Shown: one piece after another, positions 7,863-37,852 of the stretch | How positions within the stretch are numbered: the stretch's first letter is position 1 | Layout of the letters: each line of letters opens with the position of its first letter | From: Bathymodiolus thermophilus thioautotrophic gill symbiont | GTDB taxonomy: Bacteria > Pseudomonadota > Gammaproteobacteria > PS1 > Pseudothioglobaceae | Assembly: GCF_003711265.1 (NCBI RefSeq) | Contig: NZ_CP024634.1 | Location: 1,736,001-1,800,000 of the forward strand | Direction of reading: 5' to 3' | DNA length: 64,000 bases | Program-made: the position numbers and the translations under genes | The notes under the pieces: model-generated | The model's input: only the letters and a program-made list of their open reading frames with translations | The model's database searches: none | What the model was told of the DNA's origin: nothing

Positions 7863-10154
7863 ATGAATACATTTAATCGCTTTATTGTTACCACTTTATT
7901 GGTTTTGTTTACCTCACAGGTATTTGCCGTCAAACCAACAATTACAGATATTAAGAGAATAGGCAACAAGACGCTTCTTGCTACCATCGATCAATCTGTT
8001 ACGCTTTTTTACAATAAAATAGCACAAGTAGCACTCTATTCTGGCACTACATACTATTTAGGCGCTCATAATATCGTTATTTATTCTCCTGCAGAACTCG
8101 TAAATCCTGTTGATAATTACAGTCAACAGGTAAAAATTACACTTGGGGGTAAAGGCTTTGAGTTAGCCGATGCTAGCAGCAAAACTTCAGTAACTTTAAG
8201 CTTGGCCTTCAGGTACTTGGAAAATGCAGCGGGTGAATTAAGCAACCCCTACAACCAAAATCTTATTCTTGCTATTAATAACAACCTCGCCATCACCTCC
8301 AACAACACCCTCAGCGCTAACGAAGGCAGCAGCCCCACCCACACCCTTATTGCCAACGACTCCGCTGCCACCTTCAGCATCACCGAAGACACCAGCCGCT
8401 TATTCAGCCTCAGTGGCACCAACAACAGCACCCTAACCTTCAACGGCACCAGCACCGACTACGAAAGCGCCACAAAATCCTACACCGTCAAAATCAAAGC
8501 CAGCACAGGAGATGGCGACGATAAAAACACCGAGCAAACCATCACCGTCAACCTAGTCGACCTTAACGACGAAACCCCCACCGCCATCACCCTCACAGGC
8601 GACCGAACCATTGCTGAAAACACAAGAACTGGCACTGAATTAGGCACACTCTCCGCCACCGATGCCGATGCCAACGACACTTTCACTTACACCAGTAGCA
8701 ACACCAAATTTACCATTGACAACAACAAACTCAAACTCAACACCACCCTAGACTACGAGAACGCCACCAGTCTTAGCACCACCATTACCGTAACCGATGG
8801 CAACAATCACACATTCGACAAAATCTTTAATTTCACAGTTAGCGACATAGACGACACTGCCCCAACTAACATTCTACTTAGTAATGTAAACTTGATCAAA
8901 GACCAACCCGCCAATACCCTAGTCGGTACCCTCAGTGCCAGTGATGTAGATACCAGCACTCCCCTTACCTTTACCGTCAACGACACCACCAACTTCAAAA
9001 TCGTCAACGGCAATGAACTTAGAACCAATAAATCCATCACCACTGCCCTCGGAAACACGATCAATATTAACATCACCGCCAGCGACAATACTAACGACTC
9101 CGCTCCACAACCCTTTACCATTGCCATTACTACCACTTACATCGCTGCCCCAGTGATCTCCCAATTTAGTGTAACCCAAGGTGAAAACAAAGGTCCTTTA
9201 ATCAGCAAAGATGGTGGAGAAGTTACTGTCAGTGCTTCAGCAGGCACAGGAACTTATACTTGGAGTAGTAACGATTTTTCTAACACAAGCACCAACAAGA
9301 CTTTTGTTTTCAATCCCCAAAGTGTCAACATCGGCACCCGAACAATCACATTAAAAGTAACGGCTGGCGATTTTTCATCAGAAAGAGTATTGAGGCTTAA
9401 ATTAGTTGACACCTACCCCAATGGACGAACAGACACAAACGGCAATGGCATTTCCGACAGCAAAGAATCAGGAAATAGCGACAATGAATTACCCGCAGGC
9501 ACAAACAAAAAAATCACCAGTCCAGGAAGTACTAGAATATTACCCGGCATCATGGGCGAAGATTCTGGGCAGCTAACCCTTGATCAACTAAAACAATACA
9601 GAGTAGCCAACCACCTATCCGACTACACTAAAGACACCTTAGCCACTGGCGATATCTACGACTATATAATCGAAGGCCTAAGCGCCACTGGTGACTCCAC
9701 CCAAGTAATCATTCAACTCGCCACCCCAATCCCTGCAAATGCAGTATTGCGTCAATACTCACTAGCGACTGGCTGGCGTAATTTTGTGGTTGATAATAAT
9801 AACAGCATACAATCTAAAATCAACGCAAGCAATGTCTGCACCGACACCGATGGCACTTGGCAAACTGGATTAATCACCGGCGCAACTTGCCTTAAACTAA
9901 CCCTTAAAGATGGTGGTGAAAATGATGCGGATGACAATCATGCTAATGGAGTGGTTGAAAGCACTATTTCAATAGCAACGCCTGTTGTTGTCGGTGGCAA
10001 TGATGATAGTGATGATAATGGTGGTGGTAGTAGCAGTGGCGGTGGTTGTGTTTACAATCCTAATGCACCTGCTAGATTTGATACAGTTTTTATTCTGTTA
10101 ATGACATTGAGTGCTTATTATTTAATCAGAAGAAGGCGTCGATTTTCTCATTAA
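7863..10154 (+). CDS. Cadherin-like secreted surface protein, array unit 3 (N-domain type II)
   Basis: This 763-aa protein has a 22-aa signal peptide ending QVFA. Its N-domain (about 23-145, beginning VKPTITDIKRIG) is type II, shared with unit 4. It looks distantly alignable with type I through PTIT, the TxDQ stretch, YYLG and VNP. The remainder repeats the array plan: three cadherin-like repeats, Ig-like segment, DTNGNGISD loop, anchor domain with two Cys, Gly/Ser linker, GGGC, hydrophobic helix and five Arg. Repeats 2 and 3 group with units 1 and 2, not with unit 4, although unit 4 has the same N-domain type. Between units 3 and 4 the N-domain differs almost only by replacement substitutions. 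Confidence 0.85.
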   Translation: MNTFNRFIVTTLLVLFTSQVFAVKPTITDIKRIGNKTLLATIDQSVTLFYNKIAQVALYSGTTYYLGAHNIVIYSPAELVNPVDNYSQQVKITLGGKGFELADASSKTSVTLSLAFRYLENAAGELSNPYNQNLILAINNNLAITSNNTLSANEGSSPTHTLIANDSAATFSITEDTSRLFSLSGTNNSTLTFNGTSTDYESATKSYTVKIKASTGDGDDKNTEQTITVNLVDLNDETPTAITLTGDRTIAENTRTGTELGTLSATDADANDTFTYTSSNTKFTIDNNKLKLNTTLDYENATSLSTTITVTDGNNHTFDKIFNFTVSDIDDTAPTNILLSNVNLIKDQPANTLVGTLSASDVDTSTPLTFTVNDTTNFKIVNGNELRTNKSITTALGNTININITASDNTNDSAPQPFTIAITTTYIAAPVISQFSVTQGENKGPLISKDGGEVTVSASAGTGTYTWSSNDFSNTSTNKTFVFNPQSVNIGTRTITLKVTAGDFSSERVLRLKLVDTYPNGRTDTNGNGISDSKESGNSDNELPAGTNKKITSPGSTRILPGIMGEDSGQLTLDQLKQYRVANHLSDYTKDTLATGDIYDYIIEGLSATGDSTQVIIQLATPIPANAVLRQYSLATGWRNFVVDNNNSIQSKINASNVCTDTDGTWQTGLITGATCLKLTLKDGGENDADDNHANGVVESTISIATPVVVGGNDDSDDNGGGSSSGGGCVYNPNAPARFDTVFILLMTLSAYYLIRRRRRFSH

Positions 10155-33175: not shown

Positions 33176-33913
33176 TTATTGCGTATTTGTTTCTGGCGGG
33201 GCTATGCTTCTTATATTCTGTTTAGCGTTATCTATTATTGCATTAAGATCGTCAACACTCCACACAGGTCTTCTACTACCAACCTTAAACTGATTGTGCC
33301 ATTCTTTACCATAACCAACACTTATTAATAAATCACGCAAACTATAGCCTGTTTTGTAACTTTGTACTTCTAAATCAACAATGAATCTACCCCACCTATC
33401 TTTAACAACAGGGTCTGACATATACACCATTCTATTTAATAGAATATATTCTACATACTCCTTAACAACAGCGCCTGCTTTAACATGTAGATCTTTATAC
33501 GCCTCTGTCATATTTTCATAATCAGCATCAAACCTACAGCAAATGTGTCTTTTAACGACTTCTGGCGTGTCTATACCTTTAAGCATAACTTTAATTTCAG
33601 CCCCGTCATACTCAACTAAGAAATAGCCATCGCCGCTCTGTACTTTTTTTACCAAGGTATTTACTTTTTTTACTGCAGCCTCATCATGAGGTTCTTCTCT
33701 TTGCTCACTTGCTATATATGCAGCACTTCCTTCATCTACCCAATCCAAAAAAACATCTCTGTCTTCAACATCCTTAGCCTTGTCATAAACAGGAGTCCAG
33801 CGAGCAGATTTCTTTGACTCAGTATAGGTAGTCCATTCTGCCTGAACAGATAACCCAAATACCATAAATAACAACCCAGCGAGAATTAAAACGCTACTAT
33901 AACTTTTTTTCAT
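33176..33913 (-). CDS. Exported SNase-like (thermonuclease-fold) protein
   Basis: This 245-aa protein has a signal peptide (about residues 1-25, ending VQA). The SNase-like core (about 85-210) has SGDGYFLVEYDG, KVMLKGIDTPE, KDRWGRFIVDLEV and LRDLLISVGYG. By alignment to staphylococcal nuclease the Glu (of DTPE) and the second Arg (of WGR) are kept, but the first catalytic Arg, eight residues before that Glu, is Met. Activity is therefore doubtful. Two adjacent Cys (HICC) follow. It is transcribed alone toward the terminator at 32967-32994. Confidence 0.75.
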   Translation of the reverse strand: MKKSYSSVLILAGLLFMVFGLSVQAEWTTYTESKKSARWTPVYDKAKDVEDRDVFLDWVDEGSAAYIASEQREEPHDEAAVKKVNTLVKKVQSGDGYFLVEYDGAEIKVMLKGIDTPEVVKRHICCRFDADYENMTEAYKDLHVKAGAVVKEYVEYILLNRMVYMSDPVVKDRWGRFIVDLEVQSYKTGYSLRDLLISVGYGKEWHNQFKVGSRRPVWSVDDLNAIIDNAKQNIRSIAPPETNTQ

Positions 33914-34335: not shown

Positions 34336-36501
34336 ATGAGAAGGCAACTTGCTCTTTTTATATTTGTTTGGTTGCCGAGCGTGGTCAGCGCACAAGAAAT
34401 AGAGCATGCTATTAGTTGCAACAACACGCCATTGCTTTTCCCCAAACAAGTTCTTACCACAGACGCTAAAAATATTAAGGTAGTTGCAGATTACAGTGAG
34501 GGCAACAAGGGTAACTATTTGCTAACTGGCAACGCCTCTTTAAATTCAGCCGAATTTTATCTATCAGCAGATAAAATCATGGTAGAAAAAACCACCGAAG
34601 CTTCAAGCGCCAGTGGCAATGTTAAATTCCAAGGCAAGCAAATTATGCTTACTGCTGACAACATTCTTATTAAAAAGCAAGGTGCGGTAACGCAGTCTAT
34701 TTTTGAGCAAGCTCAATACCATTATATAGGTACTAAAATTAATGGACAGGCAAAAAAAATTACCAACGATGGCAGTAAGCAAACCTTTGATTCAATGACT
34801 TATAGTTTATGTCCAATAGGCAACACAGACTGGCAAGTAAAAGCAAATAAAGTTACAATCAACCCAAAAACTAACCGTGGCATTGCTGAAAATGTGACCA
34901 TTGAATTTATGGGTGTGCCAATCTTTTATACGCCACATCATGAATGGATACTAAAAGGCAGAGATTCTGGTTTTTTAATACCAAGCATCAGCCGTTATAC
35001 CGAATCAGATTCTAGTGAAAATAAAGGTTATCAGTTTCGTATTCCTTACTATTTTAATCTTGCCCCTGAGCGAGATTTTTTATTAACACTTAATCAACTC
35101 ACTACTCGAGGTAGTGTCATCGAAGGCACATACCGTCAATTATTAAACAAAGGTCGTGTTGAAATTCAAGGCCATTATCTCAATCAAGACAAAATAAAAA
35201 AGAGCAACCGATGGTTACTCAATACACAATTAGATCTTTCTTTAAACGATAAAACTGAATTAACCCTTATCACTAATCGCGTGTCTGACCGTGAATACTT
35301 TAAAGAAATTACCCATGAAAATACAGATAAAACCACACTAATGTCCTCCATCAATGTGGCCTATGAAAACAAAAAAAACAATCTGAGCGCATCAATATTT
35401 GCTGAGAACGAACAATTACTCTCTGGCAATGCAGAATACACCCGTATGCCCGAAATTTCCCTTAGTAAAAAAATCACAAATCCAGACAATAGGGAAATTA
35501 ATCTTTCGATAATAGGCACCAAGTTTAAACATACAGATGCCACCAAAGAAACAGGTACTCGTATTCATACGCAAGCAGTTTTTGCCCGTAACATTAAAAC
35601 TGACACTTATTCAATGCGACCTAAATTTGTTGCCTCTAAAACCAAATATTTAATGGATAACAGAGCAAACGAAGGTCGCTCCATATACAGCCTTAACATT
35701 GACTCTACATTATTCCTTGAAAGAGACACTCATTTATTTGCTAAAAACTTAACACAAACACTAAACCCAAGATTGGCTTACAACTACACACCAGAAAGAG
35801 ACCAAAGTGCCTTGGCTAATTTCGATTCTGAAAAAATAAATGCGTCGTATGAAAATCTCTTTTCAGGTAAAAAGTTTACCGGTCTTGACAGAATTAGCAA
35901 AACCAACGATATTGTTATTGGTCTAGAATCTGATCTCATTAATAAAAAAACAGGAGCAACCTATTTGGCACTAAAAATTGCACAAGCACGCCACTTAGAT
36001 GACACAACTTTGGACACAGATGGCAATTTAGTCCCTCAAGACAAATACTCAAATATTGCCACCGATATTGCACTAACTTTAAATAAATTTACATTGGGCA
36101 ATGCCTTGCAATACGATCCAGATACCAGTAAAATAGCCAAAAGTAGTAGCATGCTTGGCTATGTTGTAAACCCTAAAAAATTCATTAATTTTACACATGA
36201 AGATGATGGCGAACAAAGGTCAGCAGGTATATATGGCGCTTACCCAATTACCCAAAAAGTCCATTTATTTGCAGGTATTAACCGCTCGTTAACGGATTCA
36301 ATTAACAACAAAAAGACCTTTGGTATTGCCTATGAATCTTGTTGTTGGGCAGTGCGTATTGCACATTTTAACGAATACACAAGTACCGGGATTTATGACG
36401 AAATAACCAAATTTGAATTAATACTTAAAGGTCTTGCCTCAAGTGACTCTACTTTAGTTGAGCGCCTAAGAAAAGAAATACCAAATTATTTAACCGATTA
36501 A
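34336..36501 (+). CDS. lptD: LPS-assembly outer-membrane protein LptD
   Basis: This 721-aa protein inserts lipopolysaccharide into the outer leaflet together with LptE. It has a signal peptide (1-19, ending VSA), an N-terminal OstA/LptA-like jellyroll (about 45-170) and a C-terminal beta-barrel. The disulfide Cys of the family are visible: ISCN near residue 28, SLCPIG near 157, and the adjacent pair in YESCCWAVRI near 677. It is the first gene of an lptD-surA operon with 22 bp to the next start. Confidence 0.93.
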   Translation: MRRQLALFIFVWLPSVVSAQEIEHAISCNNTPLLFPKQVLTTDAKNIKVVADYSEGNKGNYLLTGNASLNSAEFYLSADKIMVEKTTEASSASGNVKFQGKQIMLTADNILIKKQGAVTQSIFEQAQYHYIGTKINGQAKKITNDGSKQTFDSMTYSLCPIGNTDWQVKANKVTINPKTNRGIAENVTIEFMGVPIFYTPHHEWILKGRDSGFLIPSISRYTESDSSENKGYQFRIPYYFNLAPERDFLLTLNQLTTRGSVIEGTYRQLLNKGRVEIQGHYLNQDKIKKSNRWLLNTQLDLSLNDKTELTLITNRVSDREYFKEITHENTDKTTLMSSINVAYENKKNNLSASIFAENEQLLSGNAEYTRMPEISLSKKITNPDNREINLSIIGTKFKHTDATKETGTRIHTQAVFARNIKTDTYSMRPKFVASKTKYLMDNRANEGRSIYSLNIDSTLFLERDTHLFAKNLTQTLNPRLAYNYTPERDQSALANFDSEKINASYENLFSGKKFTGLDRISKTNDIVIGLESDLINKKTGATYLALKIAQARHLDDTTLDTDGNLVPQDKYSNIATDIALTLNKFTLGNALQYDPDTSKIAKSSSMLGYVVNPKKFINFTHEDDGEQRSAGIYGAYPITQKVHLFAGINRSLTDSINNKKTFGIAYESCCWAVRIAHFNEYTSTGIYDEITKFELILKGLASSDSTLVERLRKEIPNYLTD

Positions 36502-36523
36502 ACAACTAAAATATGGGGCTCCA

Positions 36524-37096
36524 TTGAAAAATCTATTGACACTTTTACTAACATTTTCGTTGACCACATTCGCTGTGCCAAACAGTATTGTTGCAGTTAT
36601 CAATGACACCATTATCACCATGGATAATATCAATGATTTAATCGATAAAGACGCCACAACAGAGCAAAAAATAGCGCTAATTGAGCAAAAAATTGACATT
36701 GAACTACAACAAGAAAAGATACAAACGCTGGGCATCAAACCCAAACTAGAAATTATTAATGCCGCCCTAGAAAATATTGCCACACGAAACGGCTTAACTT
36801 TAGCGCAACTGCGTGCCAACAATCAATTTGCTCAAATTGTTGAAACCGTCACTCAAGACCTTGCGCTTAAAGGGCTGAAACAAATTGTGTTACAACAAAA
36901 CAACATCACCATAACGCCAGAAGAAATTGACGATGAAATACTCAACAATCCCAAGAAAGACAATATAACAACAGAAGAGCACTGGAATAACATTAAAGCT
37001 CAACTTATTTACAACAAGCAAAATGCTTTTTTTCAAAGTTGGGTGAAAAACTTACGCAAAAATGCTTATATAGAAATTTTTAAACACAAGCTATAA
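36524..37096 (+). CDS. surA: SurA-type periplasmic chaperone without parvulin domains
   Basis: This 190-aa protein has a signal peptide (about 1-17) and then the SurA N-terminal chaperone domain (SIVAVINDTIITMDNI, NAALENIATRNGLTLAQLR, ITPEEIDDEI). It passes directly into a SurA-like C-terminal helix (FFQSWVKNLRKNAYIEI). Both peptidyl-prolyl isomerase domains of the 428-aa E. coli protein are missing. The start is TTG at 36524 with GGGG upstream. Position after lptD supports the identity. Outer-membrane protein folding as its role is inferred. Confidence 0.8.
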   Translation: MKNLLTLLLTFSLTTFAVPNSIVAVINDTIITMDNINDLIDKDATTEQKIALIEQKIDIELQQEKIQTLGIKPKLEIINAALENIATRNGLTLAQLRANNQFAQIVETVTQDLALKGLKQIVLQQNNITITPEEIDDEILNNPKKDNITTEEHWNNIKAQLIYNKQNAFFQSWVKNLRKNAYIEIFKHKL

Positions 37097-37108: not shown

Positions 37109-37852
37109 ATGTCTAAATCTATCATCATTTTTGGGTTCCACTCAATCCAAGCACAATTAGAAAGCAATCCAGAGTGCTTACTCAAAATCTACACACTGGA
37201 CAATCGTCACGACAAACGCTTAAATATAATAACCACACAGCTTAATCAGCTCGGCTTTAACACCTTCCCGACCAGTAAACAACAACTGAATAAACTCACC
37301 AAGAATCAAGTACACCAAGGTATTGCTGCAGAAATATTGCTACCTACTTTACCCAATCAAGATGGATTGATGAGCCACATTAGCAAACTGGAAAAAACCG
37401 CTTTAATACTAATTTTAGACTCCATTCAAGACCCAAGAAATTTAGGTGCTTGCTTGCGTAGTGCCAATGCTGCCGGTGTGGACTGTGTCATAATTAACAA
37501 GGATGGGTCGGCACCCATTAGTGCACTTGTGCATAAAACTTCAGCCGGCGCACTCAATCAACTCAAAATATTCTCAGTAACAAATCTTGCACGCACAATT
37601 AAAGCGCTGAAAGAAAACAATATCTGGGTAATTGGCTTAGATGGTTCAACAGAAACCTCACTCTATCAAGTAGATTTAACCACACCCAGTGCCATTATTA
37701 TGGGATCTGAAGGCTCAGGGTTGCGCTCATTGACTAAGAAATCTTGCGATCAACTGGCTATGATCCCAATGCAAGGTAACATAGAAAGCCTCAATGTTTC
37801 AGTGGCAACGGGGATCGCTCTATTTGAAGCCAGCAGACAGCGATTAAATTAA
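37109..37852 (+). CDS. rlmB: 23S rRNA (guanosine-2251-2'-O)-methyltransferase RlmB
   Basis: This 247-aa SpoU-family enzyme methylates G2251 in the peptidyl-transferase loop. It has an N-terminal L30e-like substrate-binding domain (VHQGIAAE near residue 70), then the SPOUT motifs DSIQDPRNLGACLRSANAAG near 109, MGSEGSGLRSL near 197 and NIESLNVSVATGIALFEASR near 225. It starts 12 bp after surA, so it is probably in the same transcript. Confidence 0.92.
   Translation: MSKSIIIFGFHSIQAQLESNPECLLKIYTLDNRHDKRLNIITTQLNQLGFNTFPTSKQQLNKLTKNQVHQGIAAEILLPTLPNQDGLMSHISKLEKTALILILDSIQDPRNLGACLRSANAAGVDCVIINKDGSAPISALVHKTSAGALNQLKIFSVTNLARTIKALKENNIWVIGLDGSTETSLYQVDLTTPSAIIMGSEGSGLRSLTKKSCDQLAMIPMQGNIESLNVSVATGIALFEASRQRLN

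Follow-up and report, generated by a model that had tools for sequence, protein, structure and literature searches.

A SurA ortholog reduced to its predicted chaperone core in a Bathymodiolus gill symbiont and its relatives

The gene that follows lptD in the Bathymodiolus thermophilus thioautotrophic gill symbiont encodes a protein of 190 aa, and it raises the questions of whether this protein is a SurA, how its parvulin domains were lost, and whether it could still escort OMPs. We analyzed a 64,000-nucleotide stretch of the genome (referred to here as the window; contig NZ_CP024634.1, positions 1,736,001 to 1,800,000); the genome carrying this core-only surA consists of one contig of 2,832,685 bases. 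An earlier note, made from the sequence alone, had read the protein as a SurA N-terminal domain joined to the SurA C-terminal helix, without the parvulin domains, and coordinates, homology, and predicted fold all agree with this reading.

The gene lies on the plus strand at 36524..37096 (TTG start; stop codon at 37094-37096), as given by the ORF and its translation. Its first residues (approximately 1 to 17; 36524..36574) are hydrophobic and form, by eye, a likely Sec signal peptide ending in TTFA, and residues 1 to 17 were the sole stretch of the AlphaFold model with a pLDDT of <50. The predicted SurA N-terminal domain (residues 18 to 141; 36575..36946), which comprises two short strands and helices, was delimited on the basis of the AlphaFold elements, the structure alignment, and a weak SurA_N match. 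It is followed by a short linker (36947..36988), which in the alignment occupies the site of the approximately 100-residue parvulin of one-parvulin relatives, and by the long C-terminal helix (residues 150 to 179) and final strand (residues 183 to 185) that complete the core in the model (36971..37093). The upstream neighbor is lptD (34336..36501, plus strand), and the downstream neighbor (37109..37852, plus strand) is a gene that we take to be rlmB, encoding a 23S rRNA methyltransferase. Across 20 fetched surA loci, lptD was present in 19 and rlmB in all 20; several of the lptD matches were partial, mostly at contig ends, and the only locus without lptD (G058) is a 3.9-kb contig. In G005, only approximately 248 aa of lptD (L042, approximately positions 8693 to 9440) could be read in one frame between the best match and the stop codon, despite a long contig, possibly owing to an assembly frameshift or a weakly matching first half. 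The TTG start of surA is common to the B. thermophilus symbiont (36490-36530) and the B. brooksi symbiont (L007:1477-1510), which are sister genomes; the remaining four core-only genomes use ATG. Between hflK and lptD, the minus strand of the window (33176-33913) encodes a probably exported protein with, by eye, a staphylococcal-nuclease-type domain.

Considered on its own, the ORF offers weak sequence evidence for SurA. The Pfam SurA_N profile matched residues 21 to 99 (E value, 0.003; 18.1 bits) below its gathering cutoff of 30.8, which is a detection threshold and not a biological trait. Four other core-only proteins scored 17.6 to 21.2 bits, and the sixth (L011) had no match at an E value of 0.05, placing all six under the cutoff (30.8). 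The four one-parvulin relatives that were scanned also fell under it, yet they had clear Rotamase matches. A phmmer search of the ORF against the PDB returned SurA at E values of 0.39 to 0.9, ranked behind two unrelated chains. These two RNA-processing chains (E values, 0.15 to 0.18), slightly ahead of SurA and absent from the fold search, were regarded as chance matches, as was the uracil-DNA glycosylase inhibitor, which was the best Pfam match by E value but scored 18.7 bits (cutoff, 25), had a solved chain at an E value of 0.62, and was likewise absent from the fold search.

It is the relatives of the ORF that make its SurA identity firm, because they link it to SurA both through a two-piece match and through direct matches to two-parvulin SurAs. 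The comparison set consisted of 95 genomes, 60 from the family of the window, which we take to be Thioglobaceae (also from the names of relatives), and 35 from outside it. The protein had matches in 63 of these genomes (53 of 60 within the family and 10 of 35 outside). One-parvulin proteins of the family matched in two pieces (approximately residues 1 to 148 and 150 to 190) with the parvulin in between, a pattern seen in 41 of the 44 family SurAs read as one-parvulin. Two-parvulin SurAs of other families matched directly (G089, E value of 3.9e-8; G087, 1.1e-6; G070, 1.8e-6), and these three proteins are SurA by blastp to Escherichia coli SurA. The ORF is thus an ortholog of surA. Pfam detected no Rotamase match inside it, and the parvulin domain that belongs to the definition of SurA and of a parvulin-type PPIase is missing; we treat the protein as a variant whose membership in SurA stands because core-only homologs are counted as SurA in a published survey (PMC11401910).

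The predicted structure points in the same direction. AlphaFold was run on the six core-only proteins, and the model of the 190-aa protein (mean pLDDT, 85.9; pTM, 0.74) retrieved SurA in BAM complexes first in a Foldseek search against the PDB (8pzv_F; E value, 5.8e-7). VIA-align gave Z scores of 13.9 for 1m5y_B (154 aligned residues; rmsd, 3.3), 13.8 for 2pv3_A (165 aligned), and 13.2 for 9hg9_F (165 aligned; rmsd, 3.5). Unrelated helical proteins can reach Z scores near 13 by chance, but the top 16 rows consisted of SurA, PEB4-type, LIC12922, PpiD, or other PPIase entries, and the sequence evidence does not depend on the fold match. Model residues 16 to 187 span SurA residues 25 to 427 with the parvulins skipped, residue 187 of the model pairing with residue 427 of SurA. 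The fold predicted is thus that of the SurA core, with the N domain and the C-terminal helix in one fold. A point against a self-sufficient core is that in crystallized E. coli SurA the core is completed by a strand from domain I (PMC2556385). The protein resembles E. coli SurA (L036) in core fold, in the order of the N domain and C-terminal helix, and in the position of its gene beside lptD, but it lacks both the P1 and P2 parvulins, has three fewer mature N-terminal residues, and shares 27% identity with it when the two are aligned. The structure prediction and the alignment to E. coli SurA, both proposed as checks in the earlier note, upheld its suggestion of a natural SurA core, which is supported by the relatives, the predicted fold, and the intact gene in six genomes.

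The same note had allowed that a full-length SurA might be encoded elsewhere, with this gene better matching another family. A SurA_N search of the genome at E values of up to 10 found no full-length SurA and recovered only the core surA gene, a 613-aa frame, and a 440-aa frame. The 440-aa frame also carries an FKBP match, and we take it to be trigger factor; the sole Rotamase match of the genome sits in the 613-aa PpiD-like frame. Within the genus, core-only genomes had one Rotamase match each (6/6; frames of 612 to 618 aa) and one-parvulin genomes had two each (5/5); G011 (86% complete) had one Rotamase match and no SurA match.

Frame length divided the 53 family matches into 44 one-parvulin proteins (269 to 328 aa), 6 core-only proteins (182 to 192 aa from the start codon), and 3 proteins that are cut by contig ends and were left out of the classes. 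Among the last, G039 and G047, whose frames begin a contig and measure 61 and 87 aa, were left unclassified, and G058 was dropped as a further core-only case because its 186-aa frame is cut off by the edge of a contig of 3,904 bases. The homology search found no SurA match in seven genomes of the family (G011, G015, G017, G025, G049, G053, and G055). The core-only gene is intact in six assemblies (the window genome, G001, G002, G004, G005, and G007); a search for the same architecture in related genomes, as had been suggested, thus yielded five others, or 6 of the 12 genomes of the genus in total. Of the relatives that bear a name, the thiotrophic gill symbiont of B. brooksi is the nearest (77% protein identity). 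Linker length is equal in five of the six proteins, while that of G002 lacks 9 further residues.

Two trees were prepared from neighbor genes of the surA locus only, with G058 dropped from the 20 loci in both and the long row G013 also dropped in the second. The six core-only genomes formed one clade in the first tree (nine genes, 19 genomes, 3074 columns; SH-aLRT, 99) and in the second (18 genomes; bootstrap, 100; SH-aLRT, 99), for which 100% of 200 bootstrap trees required one change. The branching order among the three lineages of the genus was weakly supported (26, and 50/20). Because the six core-only genomes form one clade, a single parvulin deletion within the genus is the simplest account of the core-only surA; several independent losses are disfavored, since both trees need one change only. 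The statement that both parvulins are gone therefore holds for the protein itself, whereas its history needs refinement: one domain was lost in this lineage, and the other must have gone earlier, given that the SurA of the family was already single-parvulin.

What remained in the relatives resembles the second parvulin. With 21 two-parvulin SurAs as references, the single parvulin scored higher to a P2 profile than to a P1 profile in all 19 proteins tested (of 44), by 12 to 27 bits. By eye, both active-site histidines are replaced in 19 of 19 family parvulins (Q at one place; R or L at the other), and they are present in 20 of the 21 two-parvulin references. This loss suggests that the single parvulin may be inactive. 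However, it is weak proof of inactivity, because a Pin1 double mutant without both histidines retains high activity (PMC2678132) and because P1, which is enzymatically inactive in E. coli SurA (PMC11401910), keeps histidines at both places in the two-parvulin references (19/21 and 21/21). One of the lineages in the genus (G006, G009, and G010; L014, L012, and L019, respectively) has also lost the glycine loop of the active site, and the parvulin there is an apparent intermediate in parvulin decay. The sole pair tested from this lineage had a dN/dS of 0.46 for the parvulin versus 0.27 for the N domain; the corresponding values in the G003/G008 pair were 0.22 versus 0.16.

Profiles of potential partners were searched at an E value of 0.001 in the 12 genomes of the genus, two of which are only 86 to 87% complete. 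Skp was not found in any of the 12 (control matches in 6 of 14 genomes, including E. coli), nor was BamB (control matches in 10 of 14, over the cutoff only in E. coli) or a complete DegP (control matches in 14 of 14), all 24 DegP matches being confined to the PDZ region (profile positions 237 to 345). With none of the three found in the 12 genomes, the core may work largely alone; these absences do not explain the parvulin loss, because they are common to the one-parvulin members too. In the window genome (L114, G000:C1:1309000-1318500), bamA is followed directly by lpxD, fabZ, and lpxA, by eye, and no frame occupies the place that skp has in E. coli. A 337-aa frame (L108:518-1528; G000:C1:2329517-2330527) carries cyclophilin and FKBP domains behind a signal-like N terminus and is likely a periplasmic two-type prolyl isomerase, so that periplasmic prolyl isomerase activity need not be missing. 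Frames of 324 to 342 aa that match both domains occur in 8 of the 12 genomes (G000, G001, G002, G004, G006, G007, G009, and G010). A further cyclophilin, on the minus strand (L107:741-1580; G000:C1:460640-461479), has a long lysine/alanine-rich, histone H1-like C-terminal tail; its cyclophilin matches in 5 of the 12 genomes are only 166 to 184 aa, so the tail looks variable.

By analogy with E. coli, we infer a chaperone function for the protein. It would be exported to the periplasm, where its N-terminal helices and C-terminal helix would form the SurA client groove; the groove would hold unfolded OMPs (LptD and others) in an extended state, and the protein would dock on BamA via its N-terminal strand and core and hand over its clients without prolyl isomerase activity. 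The E. coli core alone has an affinity for BAM similar to that of full SurA and, in a strain deleted for surA, complements the membrane sensitivity (PMC11366764). When isolated, the core acts as a chaperone, and it expands bound clients, an expansion that the PPIase domains limit (PMC11401910), and the folding of LptD in E. coli is strictly SurA dependent (PMC9820271). Other findings speak against a fully sufficient core: aggregation of OmpT is not prevented by E. coli SurA without one or both PPIase domains (PMC9820271), and uropathogenic E. coli needs the PPIase domains to be fully resistant to novobiocin in broth (PMC2556385). In all 17 family members aligned, the mature N terminus has three residues fewer than in E. 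coli SurA, and BamA docking may differ because the shortening falls at residues 23 to 28, the stretch that in E. coli pairs with POTRA-1 of BamA (PMC11366764). If BamB is truly absent, SurA has no BamB to contact. We consider it very probable that this surA ortholog has been reduced to its chaperone core by a single loss of the last parvulin, with the predicted groove, BamA docking, and client handover operating without an isomerase.

In the closest core-only pair (G000, the window genome, and G004), the dN/dS of surA was 0.23, and it was 0.13 to 0.23 in four other core-only pairs, for which dS is above 1.2 and the values are rough; two one-parvulin pairs gave 0.19 and 0.29. As yardsticks in the G000-G004 pair, lptD had a dN/dS of 0.17, and rlmB, duf177, plsX, and fabH had values of 0.03 to 0.10. 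Given this dN/dS in the closest pair and the intact frame in six separate assemblies, the ORF is neither a chance frame nor an assembly fragment. Across the six core-only proteins, 50 of 190 columns are invariant. The core-only surA is maintained under purifying selection and evolves faster than its housekeeping neighbors. This faster rate relative to rlmB, duf177, plsX, and fabH could be taken to mean that the gene is a decaying remnant on its way to loss and that OMPs are now escorted by PpiD or some other protein, and both the further linker residues missing from G002 and the presence of a PpiD-like protein would fit. We regard this as very unlikely: the gene is intact in all six genomes, its dN/dS is well below 1, near that of lptD and similar to those of the one-parvulin pairs, the alignment retains its invariant columns, and a backup is not evident because the searches found neither Skp nor a complete DegP.

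It is very unlikely that the protein was repurposed, whether to serve LptD exclusively as its chaperone, to act as a partner of PpiD/Sec, or in some other way, and is no longer a general OMP chaperone. The adjacency of lptD in 19 of 20 loci could hint at such a role, and the shortened N-terminal strand, together with the undetected BamB, suggests changed docking on BAM; however, the lptD-surA adjacency is common to E. coli and the one-parvulin relatives and hence indicates nothing specific, and the short N terminus, occurring in 17 of 17 family members aligned, is not peculiar to the core-only proteins. The earlier note had suggested that the parvulin loss could reflect economy of the genome in a lineage of symbionts, and of the three core-only clade members that bear a name, two are indeed mussel symbionts (that of B. 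brooksi and "Candidatus Thiodubiliella endoseptemdiera" of B. septemdierum). The comparison does not support this explanation, which is very unlikely, because the window genome, at 2.83 Mb, is the largest of the 12 genus genomes searched, while the vesicomyid clam symbionts ("Ca. Ruthia" and "Ca. Vesicomyosocius"), with genomes of 1.0 to 1.2 Mb, have not lost the parvulin. The B. azoricus and B. heckerae symbionts have it as well. Reduction to a chaperone core by one loss of the last parvulin is the reading that we retain.

The core-only SurA architecture is already known and rare; new here is its occurrence in this family. The InterPro entry IPR015391 presumably rests on SurA_N. Among the 14,244 SurA homologs in this entry, a survey reports 73 core-only proteins, 49 of them from Halomonas, with at least one parvulin domain in 99.5% of SurA homologs and the PPIase-less SurAs largely from extreme environments (PMC11401910). 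The core-only proteins reported there have the same architecture and differ in lineage from the mussel-symbiont/SUP05 relatives described here. The survey probably missed this family, because the family's proteins score under the SurA_N cutoff. In an even sample of the class, SurA_N was over the cutoff in 118 of 124 genomes (12 with frames of 307 to 347 aa and the rest with 416 aa or more), and no core-only SurA was found among these 118. The six genomes without a SurA_N match at an E value of 0.001 included both family members sampled (G000 and G012) and four others. Curated SurA_N searches thus miss family members, and core-only SurA may be undercounted.

One-parvulin SurAs of five genus genomes are 52 to 57% identical to the core-only protein in the core and 59 to 74% identical in the C-terminal piece; those of "Ca. 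Ruthia" and "Ca. Vesicomyosocius" are 41 to 43% identical in the core. Where checked, the one-parvulin SurAs of the family lie at the same locus as the core-only surA. The one-parvulin SurAs, including those of the B. azoricus, B. heckerae, "Ca. Ruthia," and "Ca. Vesicomyosocius" symbionts, differ in retaining a parvulin, which is P2-like and without both active-site histidines in the 19 examined. According to a review, SurA of the Alphaproteobacteria carries a single PPIase domain or none, and Brucella SurA, by the description given there, is likewise diminished, without PPIase domains and with a BAM without BamB (PMC2635482). The N+C construct of E. coli SurA (Behrens et al. 2001, as described in PMC2556385 and PMC9820271) has the same domain content and is functional in vivo, but it is a laboratory deletion and not a natural protein. 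Among the titles listed in our literature searches, we found no published description of SurA in Bathymodiolus symbionts or Thioglobus.

The evolutionary series around this core-only SurA is unusually clear. The role of the SurA parvulin domains is still debated, and here they are affected by a natural deletion within one genus, in genomes in which the usual backup chaperones were not found. Together with close relatives that have one intact or eroded parvulin, they form a natural series in which the clients or conditions that depend on the parvulins could be sought. As a tentative proposal, about which we have more doubt than confidence, the bare SurA core would run OMP delivery without Skp, DegP, BamB, or a SurA parvulin, at the end of a natural series leading from two domains through a P2 without active-site histidines and an eroded P2 in a related lineage to none, parvulin loss being the last step. 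If this is true, the symbiont and its core-only relatives would have one of the smallest natural OMP-delivery pathways.
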